The translations under genes were made by a program, and so were the position numbers. DNA of 34,562 nucleotides from a virus, in IMG/VR virus record IMGVR_UViG_3300046492_000083, positions 1 through 34,562 of that record. One strand, 5' to 3'. The notes under the pieces are model-generated. The model saw only the letters and a list, made by a program, of their open reading frames with translations. It was not told where the DNA came from and made no database searches. Positions 8,669-34,562 of the stretch are shown here, piece by piece; position 1 is the first letter of the stretch, and each line of letters opens with the position of its first letter.

Positions 8669-11600
8669 GTGGAATTCCCGCTAGACATTCGCACGGAACT
8701 TAACCTTGGCGGCGCATGGGAGGACATCAGTTCTGACGTCTACCTGCGCGATACCAAGCAGATCACGCGCGGTGTCCGCGACCAGGGTTCCGCCGCTGAC
8801 CCCTCTACCCTGTCCTTTACCCTGAACAACCGATCGGGCAAGTATTCCCCGCGCAACGCCATGAGCCCGCTTTACGGGAAGATCGGCCGCAATACGCAGG
8901 TGCGCCTAAGCCTGCCCGGCATCGGGGATTCCTACCTACAGCTTGACGGATCGCCTACGGGCTTTGCGTCGACCGCTGACAAGTCTGCCCTTGACATAAC
9001 CAGCGACTTTGACTTGCGCGTTGAGGGTGAACTGAACTGGTTCGGCCCTGAAAACCAGATTCTCATAGGCAAGTGGGACGACCCCAACAACCAGTGTTCG
9101 TACCTGCTACAGATTTACCAGGGCGCTGTAAACGTCCGGTACTCGACCACTGGTGACCAGAGCGTTTCGCTTGTGTGGGGTTCGCAGCCGCTTCCTGGGA
9201 ACCTTCCGGCGCGTGCGGCCCTGCGGGCTACGGTCGACATCAACACGACTGCGCACACGTCAACGCTGTGTTTCTACTGGGCACCGGACATGGATTCCAC
9301 GTGGGTCCAGTTTGGTCAGCCGGTAGTAGTCGACATCGGCACTGGCTACGGCACCGTGTTTAGCGGCACCGCTCCCCTACAGATCGGCGTCACGGACTAC
9401 CGGCACAGCACTCTCAACGCCATCCCCCGATACCCCGTGGTGGGCCGTGTGTACCGCGCTGAGGTCCGCAACGGCATCAACGGGACCGTCGTTGCCAACC
9501 CTGATTTCCGGGCGCTGGCAGACCGAGCCACGGGAACCACGGACGCCACGGGGAACGTGTGGGCACTGAACGGCAACGCTGAGATTCGGGACCGCGCTGA
9601 CCGCTACGTTGGTGAGATTTCGTACTGGCCAGTGACCTGGACTCCCGATGCTGCCGACGTCTGGACCAGCGTTAAGGCTTCCGGCATCCTGCGCCGAATG
9701 GGCCAGGGCAACAAGCCGCTTGACTCGACCCTGCGCAGGCGCATCCCTTCCGCATTCCCGCTGGCCTACTGGCCCTGCGAGGAAGCCAAGGACTCAACAA
9801 AGGCGTATTCGCCGATTCCGGGCGTCCGGCCCATGACGCTTACAAACGTCGACTGGGCAGCGCAGGACTCCCTAGAATCCTCCGCCCCGCTACCGACGCT
9901 GCATGCGCTGTCAGTCCTGGACGCGCGGATTCCCGGTGCGTCGAATACCGGAGCGTGGCACGTCGAGTGTGTTTACAACGCATTCGGCAAGATTCCACCG
10001 TCTACCGGCGCTGAGGCTCCGCTACTCACCATCTACACCGCAGGCGGAAGCGCAATCGTCAAATGGCAGCTAACCGCCAAGCAGACGGTTGCCCACATCT
10101 ACGGGTACAACGACGTTGGAACAAAGGTCATTGACCAGCCGATCGGCGTTGGTGACGACATCTTCAACCTATGGAACCGCTTGCAGTTCTACGCCAACAA
10201 CAACAGCGATGGTACGTACAGCGCGCGTATCAACTGGCAGGACATTGGCGGCGAGGCAGGCGGATTCACGGTCACCGGTACCGGCACCGTTGGCTATGTG
10301 AACCACATCTACCAGCCGTTCACCGCGCTTAACGATGGCTGGGCCTTTGGCCACCTGTTCGTACTGCCGTACATCAACCAGTCCCTACTAACCGGCTCGG
10401 ATGATGCGTACGTAGGTGAGGACGCCTATACCCGGATGATGCGCCTTGCCTCTGAGGAAGGAATTAGCATCGCGCGGGTTCCTGGCGCACTGCCGGTGAC
10501 TCCCGTTGGCTACCAGCGCGCTGACGCTCTGCTGAACCTGTTTGAGGCTGCCGCTGAGGCTGACGGCGGACTACTGACCGAGTCTCCCGACCGGCTGAAC
10601 CTGCGCTACCGGGACCGATCGTCCATGTACAGCCAGACTCCAAAGCTGACGCTCGCTTACAACCAGCCTGGCCTAGGGCCGGACCTTGAGCCAGTGGACG
10701 ACGACACACACGTCTACAACGACGTGACGGTTACGCGGGACAGTGGTTCGTCCTTCCGGGCGTTCCTGGATTCCGGGTCCATGTCGATTGAGACTCCGCC
10801 CCTAGGCATCGGCCGCTATGACACGTCTTACACGCTGTCTCTGGCGGACGACGACCAGCCGCAGGCTATTGCTAACTGGCGGTTGCACCTGGGCACTTAC
10901 GACGGTGCACGCTGGCCGACCGTTTCCGTAATGCTTCACAAGCCTGGCGCTGAGGCGCTTATCCCGGACGTCCTTGGACTGCGGGAAGGCGACAAGTTGA
11001 AGATCACGGGGCTACCCCAGTGGGTCAGCAACGATGATGTTGAACTGATCGTGCACGGCTGGTCCGAGGAAATCGACCCGTACTCATGGACAGTCACGTT
11101 CAACTGTGTGCCCGCAGGCCCATGGAACGTGGCCACCCTGCCGGTTGATGCCATGTACGAGAGCTTTGAGGACGCCACCTATGAGCTGAACCTAGCCTTT
11201 GGCGGTGCGCAGCCTTGGGCACGTGCGACGGACCAGCGCTTGACCGGTAGCTACTCGCTAAAGTCGGGCGCGATCAGCGCTAGCCAGGATTCGACTGCGA
11301 TTCTCACGCTGCCCCCGGGCGCTGGAACGCTGGAATTCTGGTACAGGACCGATAGTCAGCCGACCGGCGATTACCTGTACGTGTGGCTTGATGGCGTCGA
11401 GGCGCTACGAGCGTCGGGGGCAACGCCCTGGACCAAGGCCAGCCTTGATGTCTCGGCTACCTCGGTCGTGACGTTCGGGTACCACAAGGACGCCACCACC
11501 AACACGGGCGCTGACGCTGTCTGGATCGACGCTGTACGGGTCGGGATTCCCCAGGAAAGCACCATGCGTGCTGACGCTGTCGGCAGCGTGCTCAGCAAGG

Positions 11601-13652: not shown

Positions 13653-13657
13653 GCACA

Positions 13658-13671
13658 TACCAAATTTGGTA
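13658..13671. repeat. Operator-like palindrome, site 3
   Basis: Perfect TACCAAATTTGGTA with flanks CACA and GGTGGG, five bases after the tail-tip stop and 52 bases before the lysin start. The half-sites match CACNTACCAA, with A/G at the N position. No phage-type promoter motif is present here, so the site may work alone as a roadblock or operator between tail and lysis genes. Confidence 0.7.
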
Positions 13672-13722
13672 GGTGGGTAGCCCAGCGCTGCCCACCTGCC
13701 CCCCTTTCTGAGAGGAACCACC

Positions 13723-15747: not shown

Positions 15748-15763
15748 CTGCGTTCAGGCCACA

Positions 15764-15777
15764 TACCAATTTTGGTA
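15764..15777. repeat. Operator-like palindrome, site 4
   Basis: TACCAATTTTGGTA with flanks GGCCACA and GGTGAC. It ends six bases before a TTGCAT hexamer that pairs with TAGGTT (18-base spacing), so a bound protein would touch the -35 region of a host-type promoter for the next gene. Compared with site 2, the outer arms are in the opposite orientation. Confidence 0.7.
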
Positions 15778-15783
15778 GGTGAC

Positions 15784-16252: not shown

Positions 16253-16266
16253 TACCAAAATTGGTA
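16253..16266. repeat. Operator-like palindrome, site 5
   Basis: TACCAAAATTGGTA, perfect 14-bp palindrome, five bases after the preceding stop. The right flank GGTGGCC fits the family; the left flank (GCAGG) is degenerate. It lies 14 bases upstream of the TTGCAA of a host-type promoter. Confidence 0.65.
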
Positions 16267-16280
16267 GGTGGCCTGGGGAT

Positions 16281-16309
16281 TTGCAACCCGGGCCGCCTAC
16301 CGCTAGAGT
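16281..16309 (+). promoter_or_regulatory. Host-type promoter downstream of operator site 5
   Basis: TTGCAA at 16281-16286, 17-base spacer, TAGAGT at 16304-16309. Best-scoring host-like promoter I found by eye. Transcription would begin near 16316, about 30 bases before the ATG at 16348, which has GGGGCAGGGG upstream. Confidence 0.5.
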
Positions 16310-16347
16310 TCTACTCGTACCAACAACGACAACGAGGGGCAGGGGTC

Positions 16348-17577
16348 ATGAACGTTCAGCTTCGTACCGGCAAGGTTCACTACGCTGGGGAGCCTGACGG
16401 TTTCATGCCTGCCCCCGTGTGTGGCGGTAACCGCGCTGTCGAGGGCTACCGAGCCGTGACAGCGGAAGTCAACTGCAAAAACTGTCTGGCCATCATGGCC
16501 AAGAGTGAGGAGACGCAGGAAATGACTGAGCGTAGCGAAGAGATCACGCAGGATGAGCAGCTTGCCCGCGACGTCGAGCAGGCACAGGCCAACATCGACC
16601 GCGCGGTTTCGCTGGCTGAGGCGGAGAACGTCGAGGGCCTGGCAGAGCTGTCCAAGGAACACGAGACGCTGGTTTCGTCCATGCCGTCCCGTGGCAAGAT
16701 CCCGACCGGTGACATGACCTGGGCTGCGTTCAAGAAAGCGTCTCGGGACGACTTCCGCAAGGCATCGCAGGCGCAGCCCAAGGCGGAGACCAAGCCCAAG
16801 GCCGAGGTCATCCCGGCCAAGGACTACACCGCGTACGAGGGTGTCTCAGAGCTTGTCACCATGGGTGCCGAAAAGGTCGCTGAGGGTGTGCGCATGCACA
16901 TCAAGACCAGCACCACGGCAAAGGAAATCGCCTCAATCATCCTGGACATGTGGCGGCGCATCCCCAACAAGGATGGTGACCCGGACATCACCGGTACGTC
17001 TGACCCCGCAAAGAAGTCGTCCGGTGCCATGTACCGCGCGGTTGGTGAGGCGCTGGCCAAGGACGGCCTTGACGCATACGACGTCGAGCAGGCCGTAAAG
17101 AAGCTCATGAGGGCCGTTCAGACGCAGCGCACGGACGTCCGGGCCGAGTACCTGCGCAGCCTGGACGCGGACACCGAGGAAGCGGCCGAGGAACGCCAGC
17201 ACTTTGCCAAGCTGCTTGAGACCAACACGGCCGGTGGCCCCGTCTCCGAGTTCCTGGCCGCTCACTATCAGGTGGGCCTCAAGGGTGAGATTGAGAAGGC
17301 GCGGGAGCGTTACCACGCTGCCAAGCTGGAAGGCCCCAAGGGTGGGGAGGCCATCACCACGGGTGGGGGCGCAGGCGACGACGAGAGCGACGACGACGCG
17401 CAGGGAACGAGCCCGGACGACGAGATCAGGGCCGTTGTCCGGCTGCTGCGCAAGGACGTTGCCAAGGCCAAGCCCGAGTCTTTCGAGGCTGCCAGCGACG
17501 AGACCAAGACCGAGGTCCGTGAGGAACTTGAGGCGCTGTACAAGGCCATCAAGGACATGATCACGGCCACCCTGTAG
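16348..17577 (+). CDS. Large early protein with N-terminal zinc ribbon, unknown function
   Basis: A 409-residue acidic protein. The ATG at 16348 is preferred over an upstream TTG because it has AGGGGCAGGGG before it and lies after the promoter. Residues 1-50 look like a stand-alone actinophage zinc ribbon (H11, C25, C43, C46 in VHYAG..., VCGGN, NCKNC). Residues 65-125 are helical and charged, and a Lys/Pro-rich linker follows near 145-165. The middle (about 170-300) is helical with TSTTAKEIASIILDMWRR. The segment around 340-365 is Gly/Asp-rich and disordered, followed by a final helix. It could be a DNA- or RNA-binding early protein. It is followed by the strongest terminator in the window. 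Confidence 0.8.
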   Translation: MNVQLRTGKVHYAGEPDGFMPAPVCGGNRAVEGYRAVTAEVNCKNCLAIMAKSEETQEMTERSEEITQDEQLARDVEQAQANIDRAVSLAEAENVEGLAELSKEHETLVSSMPSRGKIPTGDMTWAAFKKASRDDFRKASQAQPKAETKPKAEVIPAKDYTAYEGVSELVTMGAEKVAEGVRMHIKTSTTAKEIASIILDMWRRIPNKDGDPDITGTSDPAKKSSGAMYRAVGEALAKDGLDAYDVEQAVKKLMRAVQTQRTDVRAEYLRSLDADTEEAAEERQHFAKLLETNTAGGPVSEFLAAHYQVGLKGEIEKARERYHAAKLEGPKGGEAITTGGGAGDDESDDDAQGTSPDDEIRAVVRLLRKDVAKAKPESFEAASDETKTEVREELEALYKAIKDMITATL

Positions 17578-17698: not shown

Positions 17699-17792
17699 GG
17701 TGTAGAGGTGTAGAAAATTGACCTGAATCAGATATCCCTAAGAAGTCTCTAAGGGAATCCAGAACTGACCCTCATTTCTACACTTCTGCACC
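17699..17792. repeat. 94-bp hairpin repeat, copy A
   Basis: Same length and nearly the same sequence as 33775-33868, apart from a 15-base variable block (17720-17734) and three single changes. The ends GGTGTAGAGGTGTAGAAA (17699-17716) and TTTCTACACTTCTGCACC (17775-17792) pair over all 18 positions if two G-U pairs are allowed. A second short stem, TCCCT/AGGGA, lies in the conserved centre. The phage-type promoter motif begins at the very next base. Confidence 0.85.
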
Positions 17793-17809
17793 TGCGATCG
17801 AACCGCTAG
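17793..17809 (+). promoter_or_regulatory. Phage-type promoter motif, copy 2
   Basis: Exact TGCGATCGAACCGCTAG, directly abutting hairpin repeat A and 38 bases before the ATG of the RecB-like nuclease. An 11-position stem follows (17810-17820 with 17829-17839, one mismatch, one T-G pair), its 3' arm covering the GAGAGGG ribosome site. Confidence 0.7.
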
Positions 17810-17847: not shown

Positions 17848-18690
17848 ATGGGCATACGCACGATTCAGCGGTCTGGTGGCCGCTTCTACTTCAACGAGGA
17901 TTTCCCGGATATCAAGTACCCGGGCGTGACGTCCGTAATCGGCATGCTGCCCAAACCCTTCCTGACGTACTGGGCTGCGGGCATGGTCGCTGAACTTGCC
18001 GTTGACTCCCTTGAGTTCATCGAGCGCATGGCCGAGCGTGACCGCGCTGGTGCTGTCCAGTACCTCAAGGGTGCTGCGACCCGCTACACCAAGACGCGCG
18101 CCAACGTCGGCAGCGACGCACACGACCTGTTCGAGCGCATGATTCGCAACCAGCGCATCGGCCGAGTTCACCCGGACATGGTCCCGTATCAGCGCAACTT
18201 CGCTGCCTTCCTGGACCAGGTCCAGCCCGAGCTAGTGCGCGCTGAGGATGTCGCCTGGTCCGACACCCATGAGTACGCGGGAAGCTTTGACGGCATCCTG
18301 CGCCTGCGACTGGACGAGAACGGCAGCCCGGACCCGCAGGGCGAATCGGCGCTTGTGATGGCCGACTGGAAGACGTCCAAGGCCACTTACCCGGACGTGG
18401 CCCTACAGATGTCCGCCTACGCGCACGCTGACGTCATGATCGACCCGCAGGGCAACCGTGAGCCGATGCCTGCCTTTGACGGTGCTGTCGTGTTGCACAT
18501 CACCGAGGATCAGGCAGCGTTCAAGCCCGTGCGCATCGCCGAGGAGAACGGCAAGCCGGACGTGTTCGCTTACTTCCTGCACCTGCGCGAGACGTTCAAC
18601 TGGGTCAACGACGTCAGCAAGTCCGTGCTTGGCGATCCGATCTGGTCCACTGACGGCCGACTGATCACCGGGACTCAGCGCCGTGCGTAG
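17848..18690 (+). CDS. RecB/Cas4-like PD-(D/E)XK exonuclease
   Basis: A 280-residue nuclease of the RecB/lambda-exonuclease-like superfamily, probably used in phage recombination or end processing. The core motifs are in order: GSDAHDLFE (about 88-96, the GxxxHxxxE-like motif I), YAGSFDGILRL (about 144-154, motif II Asp), MADWKTSK with D173 and K175 (the D-x-K pair), and LQMSAYAHA (about 187-195, the QxxxY motif). No helicase part is attached. The ATG at 17848 follows GAGAGGGACAGCCTG. It lies directly under promoter copy 2 and next to the gp3-like gene. A single-strand annealing protein was not recognised in this window. Confidence 0.85.
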   Translation: MGIRTIQRSGGRFYFNEDFPDIKYPGVTSVIGMLPKPFLTYWAAGMVAELAVDSLEFIERMAERDRAGAVQYLKGAATRYTKTRANVGSDAHDLFERMIRNQRIGRVHPDMVPYQRNFAAFLDQVQPELVRAEDVAWSDTHEYAGSFDGILRLRLDENGSPDPQGESALVMADWKTSKATYPDVALQMSAYAHADVMIDPQGNREPMPAFDGAVVLHITEDQAAFKPVRIAEENGKPDVFAYFLHLRETFNWVNDVSKSVLGDPIWSTDGRLITGTQRRA

Positions 18691-21563: not shown

Positions 21564-23999
21564 ATGGATGCTTCACAGTTGCTCGGTCACTTTGAGGGGG
21601 TCAGCGAGCAGTCAGACGGTGGCTACCTCGCTTACTGCCCTGGCCACGGTGACAGTCGCCCGTCCCTGCGAATCTGGTTCGGCGAGGATGGCAAGGTACG
21701 CATCACTTGCCGTGCCGGTTGCAAGCCTGCCGACGTCGTCAAGGCCGCTGACCTCACCTGGGCGGACATGTTCGGCGTAGAGGGTGACGTGCCCACCGTG
21801 CGCGCTGCCAAGGCTGAACTTGTCGGCCCCAAGCACATAGCCGCACTGGCCATGTATGTAGACGACGCACGCGACCGACTGAACGAGCGGGACGAGTGGT
21901 CCATACGCGCCACCTGCTATCTCGCCGACCGGTTCGGCATGACCGCAGAAACCGCCGTTGCCCTTGGTGTGGGAGTGGACGACACCACGGTTAACCCGTT
22001 GTTCGGAGCGCTCAGCGACAGCTACAAGCGCTTCCCGCGCATCACGGTTCCGCTACTCGACTTCAACGGCAACCCGCGCGGTTTGCAGGGTCGGGACCTT
22101 ACCGGTCGGTGTCCCGGACGTTGGGTGTCGCTCAGCAACCCGGAAGGCTTCCGCTGGGCTCCCTACGGCGTGTTCAAGGGTGATGGTGGGTACGGGGTCA
22201 CCCTGGTCACGGAAGGCCCTGGGGACGGCCTTACAGGCGTTTCCGTTGGCTACGACGTGGTCATGGTCCGGGGCGCTTCCCTGGTGGCTTCCCCTGACCT
22301 ACTCGCCGAGCTTGCCGAGGGCATGCAGGGAACGCAGGTAATCGCCTGCGGAGACAACGACACGGCGGGACGTGAGTTCAACCGTCGCCTTGCCGATGGC
22401 CTGCGCCCGTTCGGAATCGACGTCTACTCGCTGCCCATTCCCAACCTTGGCCCCAAGTCGGACCTTACCGATTGGCGCGAGTCCAACCCGCAGGCGTTCG
22501 CGTCCGCTCTGCACTCGGCTGTCAAGTCGGCCAGGCCCGTAGCCAAGCCCGAGGAAGCACACCGAGCAGCCGTTACCGCTGAGCTTGCGGAAGCTACCGG
22601 CGCTGACGTCGTCTCGCGCGACCAGGGCACGGAAGCAGGCCGCATTCTCGCGTCGCTGATTGAGCGCTACGGCGAGTCTGACGCCATGAACGCGCATGCC
22701 TTGGTGGCTTGGACGGATGGCCGTATCAAGTTCGCGCCTGGCCTGGGGTTCTACGTGTGGAACGGTCGCGTATGGGAGCGCTCTGAGGTCAAGGTGCGCC
22801 AGGAAGTACACCGAATGGGCGCTGCCCTGGTGCTGGCTGGCAAGCTGCAAGAGTCCAAGGGCTTTACCATGACGACGCGCATTGACGCGCTACTGACTGA
22901 GCTTCGCAGCGTGCCCAGCGTGTACGTGGCCCCGGGTGATTTCGACAACCGGCCCGACCTGCTCAGCTTTGCCAACGGCACCGTTGAACTTCGCACCGGT
23001 CGTCTCCGCCCGCACGCGCAAGGCGACATGCTGACCTACTGCCTTGCGTTGAACTACGACCCGCAGGCCCAGTGTCCGCGCTGGGAACAGTTTCTCTACG
23101 AGATTTTCCCGGATAACCCGGACTTGGTCCCGTACATGCAACGGCTGATTGGCTACGGCGCTACCGGCTACACGGATGAGCAGTGCTTCGCTGTCCTCTG
23201 GGGCAAGGGTGCCAACGGTAAGAGCGTACTCACGGACACCCTGTCTACCGTGTTCGGCCGCATCACCAAGACAACGCCCTTTGCCACGTTCGAGGAAAAG
23301 CAGTCTGGCGGTATCCCGAACGACATTGCCTCGCTGCGCGGTGCGCGGTTCGTCATGGCATCTGAGGGCGAGTCAGGCAAGCCCATGAGTGAGGCAGTGC
23401 TCAAGCGGGTTACCGGCAAGGACATGGTCTCTGCGCGCTTCCTGCGTCAGGAGTTCTTTGAGTTCAAGCCGTCGTTCCTGCTCATGCTGGCCACAAACCA
23501 TAAGCCCAAGTTCAAGGGCCAGGACGATGGCCTTTGGCGTCGAGTCAAGATGATTCCGTTTAAGCGGTATTTCGCTCCGCATGAACGTGAACACGACCTT
23601 GACAAGAAACTCAGCGCTGAGGCCGAGGGCATAGCAGCGTGGGTAGTACGGGGTGCGCAAGCCTGGTTCACTGACGGGCTGTCCGACCCGGAGACCATCA
23701 CGCTTGCCACGCGGGAGTACAAGGAAACCAGCGATGCTCTCGCCGGATTCTTCCCGGGTGTGCTTGAGCCTGCCGCAGGACAGCGCATGGACGGTGCTGC
23801 CGCCTACATCGCCTACACCGAGTGGTGCGACGCCGAGGGGTTGCAGCGTAAGGAAGTGTGGTCGCGCCAGGCGTTCTACTCGGCCCTTGAGGAACGAGGG
23901 GTCATGAAGACGCGCGGTAAGAAGGGTACGGCGCTGATCGGCGTTCGAACCGCTAGCGCAGAAGTGAAAACGGGTCCGGGCATCTTCGCCAAGGACTGA
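21564..23999 (+). CDS. Primase-helicase (zinc finger, TOPRIM, D5-type SF3 helicase)
   Basis: An 811-residue replication protein that should unwind DNA at the fork and lay primers. Domains in order: CHCC zinc finger (C25, H28, C49, C53) at about 1-60; TOPRIM-like region at about 210-290 with VTLVTEGPGDGL and VIACGDNDTAGRE (acidic metal ligands); then a D5/NrS-1-like part (about 440-530, FDNRPDLLSFANGTVELRTG); and an SF3/D5 ATPase with Walker A GKGANGKS near 547, FVMASEGESGK and LMLATNHKPKF (sensor Asn). A winged-helix-like C-terminus follows. The ATG has GAGGAGAGACAAC upstream. It stands under promoter copy 4 and before DNA polymerase. A degenerate promoter-like string lies at 23940-23956 in its coding end. 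Confidence 0.92.
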   Translation: MDASQLLGHFEGVSEQSDGGYLAYCPGHGDSRPSLRIWFGEDGKVRITCRAGCKPADVVKAADLTWADMFGVEGDVPTVRAAKAELVGPKHIAALAMYVDDARDRLNERDEWSIRATCYLADRFGMTAETAVALGVGVDDTTVNPLFGALSDSYKRFPRITVPLLDFNGNPRGLQGRDLTGRCPGRWVSLSNPEGFRWAPYGVFKGDGGYGVTLVTEGPGDGLTGVSVGYDVVMVRGASLVASPDLLAELAEGMQGTQVIACGDNDTAGREFNRRLADGLRPFGIDVYSLPIPNLGPKSDLTDWRESNPQAFASALHSAVKSARPVAKPEEAHRAAVTAELAEATGADVVSRDQGTEAGRILASLIERYGESDAMNAHALVAWTDGRIKFAPGLGFYVWNGRVWERSEVKVRQEVHRMGAALVLAGKLQESKGFTMTTRIDALLTELRSVPSVYVAPGDFDNRPDLLSFANGTVELRTGRLRPHAQGDMLTYCLALNYDPQAQCPRWEQFLYEIFPDNPDLVPYMQRLIGYGATGYTDEQCFAVLWGKGANGKSVLTDTLSTVFGRITKTTPFATFEEKQSGGIPNDIASLRGARFVMASEGESGKPMSEAVLKRVTGKDMVSARFLRQEFFEFKPSFLLMLATNHKPKFKGQDDGLWRRVKMIPFKRYFAPHEREHDLDKKLSAEAEGIAAWVVRGAQAWFTDGLSDPETITLATREYKETSDALAGFFPGVLEPAAGQRMDGAAAYIAYTEWCDAEGLQRKEVWSRQAFYSALEERGVMKTRGKKGTALIGVRTASAEVKTGPGIFAKD

Positions 24000-24024
24000 C
24001 ACAAAGACACGTCGAGGGGTCACC

Positions 24025-24038
24025 TACCAATCTTGGTA
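24025..24038. repeat. Operator-like palindrome, site 7
   Basis: TACCAATCTTGGTA with long arms GGGGTCACC and CGTGGCCCC, so about 32 bp are nearly symmetric. It fills the 70-base gap between primase and polymerase genes and ends 31 bases before the polymerase ATG. Confidence 0.7.
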
Positions 24039-24069
24039 CGTGGCCCCTTTGCGTTGCAGAGGAGAGCGC

Positions 24070-28399: not shown

Positions 28400-28413
28400 C
28401 CGAGTGGGTCACC

Positions 28414-28427
28414 TACCAAATTTGGTA
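28414..28427. repeat. Operator-like palindrome, site 8
   Basis: Perfect TACCAAATTTGGTA with arms GGGTCACC and TGTGGCCCC. It fills the gap between a small gene and thyX and ends 29 bases before the thyX TTG start. No phage-type promoter is present in this gap. Confidence 0.7.
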
Positions 28428-28456
28428 TGTGGCCCCCTCCCGTAGGAGGAGAGACC

Positions 28457-31101: not shown

Positions 31102-31122
31102 TGACACCCCGTCTGGGTCACC

Positions 31123-31136
31123 TACCAATTTTGGTA
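31123..31136. repeat. Operator-like palindrome, site 10
   Basis: TACCAATTTTGGTA with arms GGGTCACC and TGTGGCC. It is the last family member before the integration module. TTTGGT in its right half with TACTTT 17 bases further (31151-31156) could also form a weak promoter. Confidence 0.7.
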
Positions 31137-31242
31137 TGTGGCCTGGGCGGGGTACTTTTATGGCAAAAACATGTTGTTTAGCCTAACTAAGTATCCTATC
31201 GTCACAGTTCTGTAACGGGGGGTTTGTTGAGTCCGCAAGCTC

Positions 31243-32272: not shown

Positions 32273-32322
32273 TGTACTCAAGGGTGTGCACATTCGGGCG
32301 AATGCGGGTAGCCTTGAGTACA
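32273..32322. other. attP site, 50 bp
   Basis: The site is symmetric at three levels around GG at 32297-32298. Outer arms TGTACTCAAGG (32273-32283) and CCTTGAGTACA (32312-32322) are perfect 11-bp inverted repeats. Inner arms CATTCG and CGAATG flank the central GG. Two 7-base spacers (GTGTGCA and CGGGTAG) lie between. The 50-bp length, short arms and non-palindromic central dinucleotide are as known for attP of large serine integrases. The site ends on the first base of the preferred integrase start codon. Confidence 0.85.
32309..32314 (+). promoter_or_regulatory. -10-like box for integrase, inside attP
   Basis: TAGCCT at 32309-32314, seven bases before ATG 32322. It lies in the right half of attP, so it stays linked to the integrase gene after integration. 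Confidence 0.4.
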
Positions 32323-33737
32323 TGAGCCTTCAACACAGCATCGCAGTAGCCAACGGGGACCGCCCGGCCATAGCCGCTTACATCCGGCTGAGCCGTGAGA
32401 ACGAGGACAGCGCCAGTATCGAGACTCAGCGTACGGCCGTGAAGCGCTGGGCTGAGGCCAACGGGTTTGACCCCGAGTCCCTGGTGTTCTACACCGATGC
32501 TGGCGTGTCCGGCGCAAAGCCGCTTGAGCAGCGTGAGCACATGCGTTTGCTCATGAAGCACCGTCCGGCCGTAGTCATCGCATGGAAGCTTGACAGGTTC
32601 GCTCGGAGCGTTACCGAGTTCCTGCGCCTGGTGGCCTGGGCCGAGTCTCACGGTGTGCGCCTGGCGACGACAGACAACACCATCAACACGGCTACACCTA
32701 CCGGGCGCATGGTGGCCGTTGTCCTGGCAGCGCTGGCCGAGTGGGAACGTTCGATGATCGCTGACCGCATCCGGGACGGCCACGCGACCCGCAGGGCTCA
32801 AGGCCGATGGGGTGCGGGTAGGGCACCGTACGGTTACCAGATCGTTCGCCGAGATGGTGCCGCTTACCTTGAGGTGCACCCGGAGCAGGCAGCCAAGATC
32901 GTTGCGGCAGTCAACACGCTGACCCATGGGAACGGCACGGTTGCCGGTACAGCGCGCATGGTGGACCTGTCAGAGCCCCAGTGGCGCAGGTTGCTCAAGT
33001 CCCCCACGCTCCGAGGACAGCGCAGTCACAAGGGCTCGCTAGTGCTGGCCGACGATGGCATTACCCCCGTGCAGTTCGCCGAACCGATCATCAGCGCTGC
33101 GGAGTACAAGGCCGTACGGGACAGGCTGCTTGCGCTGGCCACTGGCCAGGACCGTGCACCGAGTCACGCCGCGAACCAGTGCGCTGGCCTGGTCTGGTGC
33201 TACAAGTGCGCGGGTCCGCTGAACGGTGGCGGTAGTGGCAAGGGCGTCCGCCTGTACAAGTGCAAGGCGGGACACGTGACTATCTACGCCGAAACGCTAG
33301 ATGAGCGGGTAGAGACCGAGTTCCGTAAGCGCTGGGGCAATTTCGAGGAATACACCGTGCGGCTTGAGGGCGGTAACGACCTGTCTGACCAGATGATCGA
33401 GGCCCAGGAAGCGGCTGAGCGCCTGGCAGCGCAAATGGCTACGGCCGGTCCGCTCATGCTGTCCAAGCTCGGTGACATGGCCGAGCAGCTTGAGGCCACG
33501 TACGCCGCTCTAAGGGCCGCTCACGACCCGGACGTACGGGAAGTGCTTGAGCCCACTGGTAGGACGCTGGGGGAAGCCTGGGACGCCTCCCCGGGGGAAC
33601 GTGGCCGCTTGCTTGCCGATCTGGGTCTGTCGGTCACGCTGTACCCCAAGCAGCAGAAAGACCGGTTGTCCGTGCGCTGGGCCAGTGGCGGGGACGACGT
33701 TGCAGCCGCAGAGTGGTTGGGCGACCACGACGAGTAG
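32322..33737 (+). CDS. int: Large serine integrase
   Basis: A 471-residue recombinase (483 if GTG 32286 is used) that inserts the phage at a host attB. The resolvase-type catalytic domain has IAAYIRLSREN with S24 as nucleophile, then SIETQRTAV, YTDAGVSGAKP and AWKLDRFARSVTEF. Next are AALAEWERSMIADRI (long helix) and ARR..GRAPYGYQI. The recombinase domain covers about 165-280, followed by a zinc ribbon (CYKCAGPL ... LYKCKAGH; fourth ligand may be His) and a coiled-coil insertion at about 350-400. The ATG at 32322 is preferred because S24 is then near the N-terminus, and GTG 32286 lies inside attP, upstream of the crossover. It most resembles the phiJoe type. Confidence 0.92.
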   Translation: MSLQHSIAVANGDRPAIAAYIRLSRENEDSASIETQRTAVKRWAEANGFDPESLVFYTDAGVSGAKPLEQREHMRLLMKHRPAVVIAWKLDRFARSVTEFLRLVAWAESHGVRLATTDNTINTATPTGRMVAVVLAALAEWERSMIADRIRDGHATRRAQGRWGAGRAPYGYQIVRRDGAAYLEVHPEQAAKIVAAVNTLTHGNGTVAGTARMVDLSEPQWRRLLKSPTLRGQRSHKGSLVLADDGITPVQFAEPIISAAEYKAVRDRLLALATGQDRAPSHAANQCAGLVWCYKCAGPLNGGGSGKGVRLYKCKAGHVTIYAETLDERVETEFRKRWGNFEEYTVRLEGGNDLSDQMIEAQEAAERLAAQMATAGPLMLSKLGDMAEQLEATYAALRAAHDPDVREVLEPTGRTLGEAWDASPGERGRLLADLGLSVTLYPKQQKDRLSVRWASGGDDVAAAEWLGDHDE

Positions 33738-33774: not shown

Positions 33775-33868
33775 GGTGTAGAGGTGTAGAAAATTAGGTA
33801 CTTCCAGTAATCCCTAAGAAGTCTCTAAGGGAATACAGAACTGACCCTCGTTTCTACACTTCTACACC
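33775..33868. repeat. 94-bp hairpin repeat, copy B
   Basis: Arms GGTGTAGAGGTGTAGAAA (33775-33792) and TTTCTACACTTCTACACC (33851-33868) pair over 18 positions with one G-U, and one more G-C on the outside. The centre TCCCTAAGAAGTCTCTAAGG is identical to copy A, and the 15-base variable block is at 33796-33810. It starts 37 bases after the integrase stop and stands 24 bases before promoter copy 7. Confidence 0.85.
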
Positions 33869-33892
33869 CCAGCGGGCTGACCGTTACAAAAG

Positions 33893-33909
33893 TGCGATCG
33901 AACCGCTAG
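33893..33909 (+). promoter_or_regulatory. Phage-type promoter motif, copy 7 (before tRNA cluster)
   Basis: Exact TGCGATCGAACCGCTAG, followed by ATATAGGGTAGGG. No gene follows on the + strand before tRNA-Asp at 34039, so it probably drives the tRNA cluster. Confidence 0.7.
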
Positions 33910-34038: not shown

Positions 34039-34112
34039 GCTTCACTAGCTCAAGTGGTCAGAGCGTCCGCCTGTCGAGCGGGAGGCTACCGGTTCAAATC
34101 CGGTGTGAAGCG
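34039..34112 (+). tRNA. tRNA-Asp (GUC)
   Basis: 74 bases with all four arms. Acceptor GCTTCAC (34039-34045) pairs with GTGAAGC (34105-34111). D arm GCTC/GAGC, anticodon stem TCCGC/GCGGG with loop CTGTCGA (GTC at 34073-34075), T arm ACCGG-TTCAAAT-CCGGT. Discriminator G34112. No CCA encoded. Confidence 0.95.
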
Positions 34113-34116
34113 CGCG

Positions 34117-34158
34117 GGTGCAGACCGTAAGGCCGTGACTGGCATGTCTGTCTGCACC
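34117..34158 (+). other. Hairpin between tRNA-Asp and tRNA-Asn
   Basis: GGTGCAGAC (34117-34125) pairs with GTCTGCACC (34150-34158), a perfect 9-bp stem with TT following. Could be a processing or termination signal; no tRNA B-box is present. Confidence 0.5.
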
Positions 34159-34227
34159 TTGGGTGAAACCGGCCCTACCTCCCTGGCTAGTCCCCAGCGG
34201 AGCGGGCGGCGAGTAACCCTAAATCTT

Positions 34228-34301
34228 TGGCGGATAGCTCAGTTGGTGAGAGCGCCGGACTGTTAATCCGGATGTCGCAGGTTCGAGCCCTGCTCTGCCA
34301 G
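34228..34301 (+). tRNA. tRNA-Asn (GUU)
   Basis: 74 bases. Acceptor TGGCGGA (34228-34234) pairs with TCTGCCA (34294-34300) with one G-T. D arm GCTC/GAGC, anticodon stem CCGGA/TCCGG with loop CTGTTAA (GTT at 34262-34264), T arm GCAGG-TTCGAGC-CCTGC. Discriminator G34301. No CCA encoded. Confidence 0.95.
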
Positions 34302-34303
34302 CT

Positions 34304-34383
34304 TGGTACGTAGCTCAGTCGGCAGAGCGCCCCTACCCGGGCTTGTAACGGGGATGTCGCTGGTTCGAGTCCAGCCGTACCAA
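34304..34383 (+). tRNA. tRNA-Thr (UGU) with 7-base insertion in anticodon stem
   Basis: Acceptor TGGTACG (34304-34310) pairs with CGTACCA (34376-34382). D arm GCTC/GAGC, T arm GCTGG-TTCGAGT-CCAGC, anticodon loop CTTGTAA (TGT at 34344-34346), discriminator A34383. The 5' strand of the anticodon stem reads CCCC, then TACCCGG (34334-34340), then G; removing the seven extra bases gives a perfect CCCCG/CGGGG stem. Length is 80 rather than 73. May be non-functional, or tolerate a bulge. Confidence 0.75.
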
Positions 34384-34387
34384 CGGA

Positions 34388-34468
34388 GTCAGCGGCGATC
34401 CCCGAAAGCGCGGGACAACGGGGGCAGACACTCCCCTACAGGGTGGTTCTAGTCCTGTACCGCTGACA
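34388..34468 (+). ncRNA. tRNA-like cloverleaf of unknown identity
   Basis: Closing stem GTCAGCGG (34388-34395) with CCGCTGAC (34460-34467), 8 bp. Inside lie three arms: TCCC/GGGA (34399-34402 with 34412-34415), GGGGG/TCCCC with loop CAGACAC (34420-34436), and TACAGG/CCTGTA with an 11-base loop (34437-34459) that holds GGTTCTAGTCC, close to a B-box. The anticodon-like loop has no U33, and the 8 + 6 stacked pairs exceed the usual 7 + 5. It lies between tRNA-Thr and tRNA-Pro. Degenerate tRNA or new structured RNA. Confidence 0.5.
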
Positions 34469-34474
34469 GTTTGC

Positions 34475-34547
34475 AGGGTAGTGGCCCAGTGGCTAGGGCG
34501 TCCGGTTTGGGGCCGGAACATCGCGGGTTCGAGTCCCGCCTACCCGA
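34475..34547 (+). tRNA. tRNA-Pro (UGG)
   Basis: 73 bases. Acceptor AGGGTAG (34475-34481) pairs with CTACCCG (34540-34546) except for the first A-G. D arm GCCC/GGGC, anticodon stem TCCGG/CCGGA with loop TTTGGGG (TGG at 34508-34510), T arm GCGGG-TTCGAGT-CCCGC. Discriminator A34547. The unpaired first position is unusual for tRNA-Pro but mild. No CCA encoded. Confidence 0.9.
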
Positions 34548-34562
34548 CTGAGCACCGGTAGT

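Follow-up and report, generated by a model that had tools for sequence, protein, structure and literature searches.

The alpha protein of phage P4 binds the repeats of its origin by means of a winged helix (PMC4234260), and in the SaPI Rep and SCCmec Cch2 proteins the origin iterons are bound by C-terminal domains (PMC7581432). Phage SPP1 has two origins about 13 kb apart, and it has been proposed that a protein-bound origin stalls the fork and starts concatemer synthesis (PMC6316719). In this study, a 94-bp element found twice in a phiC31-like Streptomyces virus was compared across related phages. We conclude, with a probability of roughly 85%, that both elements are phage replication origins which bracket the early region and are bound via their iterons by the winged helix of the phage primase-helicase. 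The window, that is, the whole stretch of DNA analysed, is the IMG/VR record IMGVR_UViG_3300046492_000083 of 34,562 nucleotides (34.6 kb); among isolates, Streptomyces phage Rowa is the nearest to it by DNA. It encodes a phiC31-type repressor, a Gp3-like protein, a Toprim/D5 primase-helicase, a family A polymerase, a serine integrase and ThyX (Table 1). Homologues of its exonuclease in isolates carry the annotation "Cas4 family exonuclease". The primase-helicase contains a Toprim primase domain (PF13155, E 8.8e-6, over the family cut-off), a D5_N/SF3 helicase domain (PF08706, E 2.7e-27, and PF19263; PDB 7ola by sequence, E 2e-7) and a predicted C-terminal winged helix. Four tRNA genes (Asp, Asn, one unassigned, and Pro) are found at the right end, at bp 34039-34548, beyond copy 2 of the element.

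The initial annotation described two repeats of equal length, 94 bases, in the same orientation and differing by one 15-base block and three single bases, and the sequence agrees. It also described the 18-base arms as fully paired, which holds if G-U pairs are allowed but not otherwise, there being one G-T position in copy 2 and two in copy 1. The repeat structure of the arms was overlooked at that time: every arm is made up of two tandem 8-bp iterons (GTGTAGAG GTGTAGAA), and the element is built of two such pairs facing each other over a 58-bp centre. When the arm pattern GTGTAGAGGTGTAGAAA was searched with up to 3 mismatches, the window gave four occurrences, which are the four arms, as compared to none in 100 shuffles. 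The G+C content of the centre is 43.1% as compared to 62% for the window, and only 0.4% of the 58-bp stretches in the window are this low, so the centre is low in G+C relative to this genome but not AT-rich in absolute terms. As in iteron origins, tandem short repeats are present (8-bp units in both arms, and 7-9 bp in relatives), and beside them lies a low-GC region where unwinding is putative. GC skew at fourfold sites showed no clear turn at either element. Copy 2 begins 38 bases beyond the end of the integrase gene, ahead of the tRNA genes. An integrase attachment site was considered for the element and set aside, as the element is 94 bp in length (serine-integrase attP sites are approximately 45-50 bp; PMC5311408) and is present in two copies, one of them 16 kb from the integrase gene.

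Table 1. Positions of the two elements, their neighbouring genes, the primase-helicase and the promoter-like motif in the window.
Feature	Position (bp)	Strand	Basis or context
Repressor c gene	16261..17577	+	PF25746, E 4.8e-68; upstream of copy 1
Element copy 1, proposed origin 1	17699..17792	+	between repressor gene c and Cas4-type exonuclease gene
Left iteron pair of copy 1, GTGTAGAG GTGTAGAA	17700..17715	+	sequence
Centre of copy 1, low G+C, quasi-palindrome TCCCTAAGAAGTCTCTAAGGGA, candidate unwinding element	17717..17774	+	base composition
Right (inverted) iteron pair of copy 1, GTGCAGAA GTGTAGAA	17776..17791	-	sequence
Cas4/RecB-type exonuclease gene (phiC31 gp1 homologue)	17848..18690	+	phrog_298 exonuclease; downstream of copy 1
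Primase-helicase (phiC31 gp9a homologue), proposed iteron-binding initiator	21564..23999	+	PF13155, PF08706, PF19263; phrog_6088 DNA primase
Wing codons of the C-terminal winged helix, residues 781-796	23904..23951	+	R784 = 23913-23915, T789 = 23928-23930
Serine integrase gene	32286..33737	+	PF00239, phrog_95 integrase; upstream of copy 2
Element copy 2, proposed origin 2	33775..33868	+	just past serine integrase gene; same place in phiC31
Left iteron pair of copy 2	33776..33791	+	sequence
Centre of copy 2, 43.1% G+C	33793..33850	+	base composition
Right (inverted) iteron pair of copy 2, GTGTAGAA GTGTAGAA	33852..33867	-	sequence
GTGCGATCGAACCGCTAG copies	15096, 17792, 18695, 21522, 23939, 26306, 27992, 33892	+	motif count

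Neither a direct DNA search of a phage collection nor an exact pattern search of viral contigs found the element, because the iteron letters vary between phages. Relatives were gathered by anchoring on the exonuclease protein, which gave 45 and then 80 loci. Upstream of the exonuclease gene these carry the same architecture written in other letters (GTGACGAA, CTGACGAA, ATGACGGT, GTGCAGTA), and a scan of this region found it in most of the 20-kb loci and in none of 20 shuffled loci. The place and build of copy 1 are the same in phiC31 and most relatives; in phiC31 itself the element is located before gp1 and again past int, ahead of tRNA-Thr. Two copies were found in phiC31, phiBT1, Rowa, Vash, Nesbitt, Shawty, CallinAllBarbz, Janeemi, GardenState and Mysterium, and the pair is also present in some Arthrobacter, Microbacterium and Curtobacterium phages and in many IMG/VR contigs. 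The second copy is located 13-21 kb from the first, usually just beyond the integrase gene, and 13 of the 15 IMG/VR contigs that were read at the integrase gene have an element near it.

The iteron letters are TGACG, TGTAG, TGCAG or CTGACG depending on the phage, and all iterons within one genome switch jointly. In all 23 of the genomes compared, the two copies agreed in iteron class (p about 1e-5). The inter-iteron spacing of 7, 8 or 9 bp was the same in the two arms of 84 out of 91 elements, and in 19 of 22 cases the nearest match of copy 1 was copy 2 from the same genome. The centre of the element is likewise conserved between the two copies within a genome. Arthrobacter, Microbacterium and Curtobacterium phages (L166 to L170) carry longer elements, some with extra inner iterons.

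In order to find which protein follows the iteron letters, genomes were split by iteron core (TGACG versus TGTAG/TGCAG). Five conserved proteins, namely repressor, gp1, gp3, primase and polymerase, gave 2251 alignment columns, each of which was scored for association with class. Only two of these columns matched the class perfectly. They correspond to R784 and T789 of the window protein, and both belong to the primase-helicase, in which they fall within the beta-wing of its C-terminal winged helix. The four columns most closely tied to class all fall within residues 783-789, the third and fourth being 783 and 785. Residue 784 is K in 28 of 28 genomes of the first class and R in 14 of 14 of the second, and residue 789 is I or V as opposed to M, N or T. 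A tree built from gp1, polymerase and the primase minus its C-terminal domain requires eight class changes, eight changes at residue 784 and eight at residue 789. Residue 784 moved with class in all eight of the independent switches (sign test, p 0.0078), and even two near-sister genomes, L060 and L066, differ in iteron class and wing alike. This one-to-one correspondence between the site's letters and the primase-helicase wing speaks for a role in the initiation of replication.

Since this correlation was discovered on the initial genomes, wing-based predictions were tried on further isolates, and classes were predicted before the elements were looked up. The prediction was correct for nine of nine Streptomyces isolates having a definite call, in a test that is fair but not fully independent as some of the isolates are near lineages of the first set. 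Rowa, Sebastisaurus, Heather and RemusLoopin were correctly assigned to TGTAG/TGCAG, and Vash, phiBT1, TG1, Nesbitt and Shawty to TGACG. The two Arthrobacter phages with a definite call were also predicted correctly. Shaeky and Sycamore, in which the wing has R with Q and for which no prediction was made, carry TGTTG/TGTCG and represent a third class.

Several other relatives have different wings or different words. Honk (GGGACG) and Lahqtemish (AGGGCA) apparently have the same architecture with different words and wings. Dubu (L160) and phiSASD1 (L161), whose wings have D or N at residue 784 together with V at 789, yielded no element with iterons of the known classes. In the divergent relatives L083 and L091, no element could be recognised in its usual position before the exonuclease gene. 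Each has an inverted repeat just after that gene (bp 10864-10934 in both) and a differing wing (VIKRAGVA); this repeat is possibly a moved origin with another word.

The C-terminal domain of the window primase-helicase was modelled as a winged helix (pLDDT 60.6 overall, 70-82 within the winged helix), with residues 784 and 789 predicted to lie in the two strands of the wing. The model aligned with the P4 origin-binding domain 1ka8 (Z 8.1, 2.5 A over 78 residues) and with the RFX DNA-binding domain 1dp7 (Z 9.1), scores that are near the level of unrelated models, which typically reach Z 7-8 at best. VIA-align placed two RFX domains over 1ka8, a likeness of fold and not of family. Foldseek with this model gave no match under E 0.001, and a profile search of the domain against PDB sequences gave no match. 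RFX1 reads DNA chiefly through its wing, an analogy that would fit the wing role proposed for the primase-helicase. With a model of moderate confidence, the structural similarity supports the argument for iteron reading without carrying it.

A mechanism can be proposed in which the beta-wing is the part of the C-terminal winged helix that binds the 8-bp iterons. Being inverted, the iteron pairs would set two helicase assemblies face to face over the low-GC centre, the strands would open there, and the two hexamers so loaded would unwind the DNA and prime its synthesis. Both copies may fire in this manner, or one of them may instead arrest the fork and so set off the synthesis of concatemers, the role suggested for oriR of SPP1. 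A variant of the two-origin reading, not exclusive of it, follows the arrangement of P4, which requires both ori and crr: the initiator would bind both elements, one being the start site and the other an accessory site acting via looping. Two distant copies that are apparently read by one initiator favour this arrangement. The whole build, including the centre, is kept in both copies, which suggests equal function without being decisive, and we regard the variant as possible but rather unlikely.

The element could otherwise be a transcriptional operator, where the early promoter just downstream is controlled by some DNA-binding protein of the phage, which might be the primase-helicase. The promoter motif that had been noted after each copy was confirmed, as the early-type, 18-base promoter-like motif GTGCGATCGAACCGCTAG is located at bp 17792-17809 and bp 33892-33909, at 0 and about 24 bases from the respective copies; for this reason a role in transcription keeps a small share of probability. 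Eight copies of the motif were found in the window, all on the plus strand, as compared to 0.2 expected, and the element accompanies only two of them. The protein that tracks the letters is a replicative primase-helicase and no regulator, and the conserved low-GC centre is something an operator does not need. An operator is therefore improbable, and an operator for a second regulator or a site for early transcription, as suggested in the initial annotation, are not the best readings of the element. The element was also rejected as a part of the early promoter, since the motif is separate from it and six of the motif copies occur without it. A protein encoded at bp 26359-27453 matches the phage sigma-factor family phrog_15865 (E 2.4e-92) and may recognise GTGCGATCGAACCGCTAG.

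Another suggestion was a regulatory RNA, and more generally the transcribed element could work as a hairpin, whether as regulatory RNA, processing site or attenuator. The arms are complementary when G-U pairs are counted, and the covariation test that had been proposed gave a naive score of 0.392 as compared to 0.125 for shuffled data, with none of 500 shuffles reaching it. This score is nonetheless misleading as evidence for RNA. Mutual information between the iteron cores was 0.98 for inverted, direct and non-paired combinations alike, while the linker pairs between cores within the same stem showed no covariation (0.06-0.09). Across 62 elements, in which the matching of cores is partly built in by the design of the search, the linkers matched in 62% of cells and their mismatches were mostly not G-U. 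The stem thus has no compensatory change beyond that of a symmetric protein site, and an Rfam search matched no family apart from tRNAs. Equal covariation of the cores, including non-partners, together with silent linkers indicates a double-stranded protein site and not an RNA hairpin; the pairing of the arms is kept because one protein reads four copies of one word, and the cores follow a protein domain. The element was rejected as a regulatory RNA on these grounds, and a structured RNA is very improbable, whereas the suggestion of a protein-binding site is borne out. A plain covariation test may report a structured RNA where there is in fact a symmetric site for a protein, and caution is warranted in its use.

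An operator of repressor c, of the CIB type of phiC31, is suggested by the repressor gene adjoining copy 1 but is scarcely credible, as the recurrent CIB-like palindromes sit elsewhere and have another sequence (CCTACTCACGTGAGTAGG in phiC31, CCTACCAAATTTGGTAGG-like in the window) and no repressor column tracks iteron class well. The CCTACCAAATTTGGTAGG-like palindrome recurs at bp 2137-2154, 13656-13673, 15762-15779, 24023-24040, 28412-28429 and 31121-31138 of the window, and is likely the operator of the window repressor c and the counterpart of CCTACTCACGTGAGTAGG.

Returning to the two origins, it is tempting to extend them to the phiC31 group and its Arthrobacter, Microbacterium and Curtobacterium relatives as a conserved system around the early region, with specificity set by a small wing code: K784 with I/V789 for TGACG, R784 with M/N/T789 for TGTAG or TGCAG, and perhaps R with Q for TGTTG/TGTCG. 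The code would have undergone repeated switches, in each of which the iterons of the two copies all changed jointly, and related phages sharing a cell would be mutually incompatible at their origins. We offer this generalization tentatively, at a little short of even odds. The phages phiC31 and phiBT1 are among those most used in genetic engineering, and we know of no described replication origin for either. Among the papers searched, none described an origin for the phiC31 group, and an earlier account of these repeats may exist in the older phiC31 work. In phiC31 and in many relatives, two candidate origins can now be located with single-base precision, and a predicted binding protein and two predicted specificity residues can be named. 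The co-change of wing and iterons in step provides a direct handle on the start of replication in the phiC31 group.

Compared with known systems, the element resembles the CIB operators and early promoters of phiC31 in being a repeated intergenic element of the same phages, but the sequences differ and it contains neither. As in SaPI Rep and SCCmec Cch2, the initiator proposed here has a D5-type self-loading helicase and a C-terminal domain that would read short iterons, and the SCCmec iteron AAGTG also occurs within the iteron arrays of many relatives (GAAGTGACG, GAAGTGTAG). The SaPI and SCCmec origins are located just downstream of the helicase gene (PMC7581432), whereas here the two copies are several kb from it, one on either side. 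The SPP1 origins oriL and oriR differ in being served by gp38, a helicase loader and a DnaB-type helicase, where the window phage has a primase-helicase fusion. P4 alpha is like the window protein in combining a Toprim primase, an SF3 helicase and a C-terminal winged helix (the last predicted here) in one protein used with short iterons, and the modelled C-terminal domain resembles the P4 origin-binding domain 1ka8, with a Z near background. Unlike the P4 ori and crr, the sites described here have two inverted pairs around a low-GC centre, the same build in both copies and other iteron words, and their binding is putative. The sites of the P4 initiator are nevertheless found at two separate places, ori and crr, as are the two copies of the element here.
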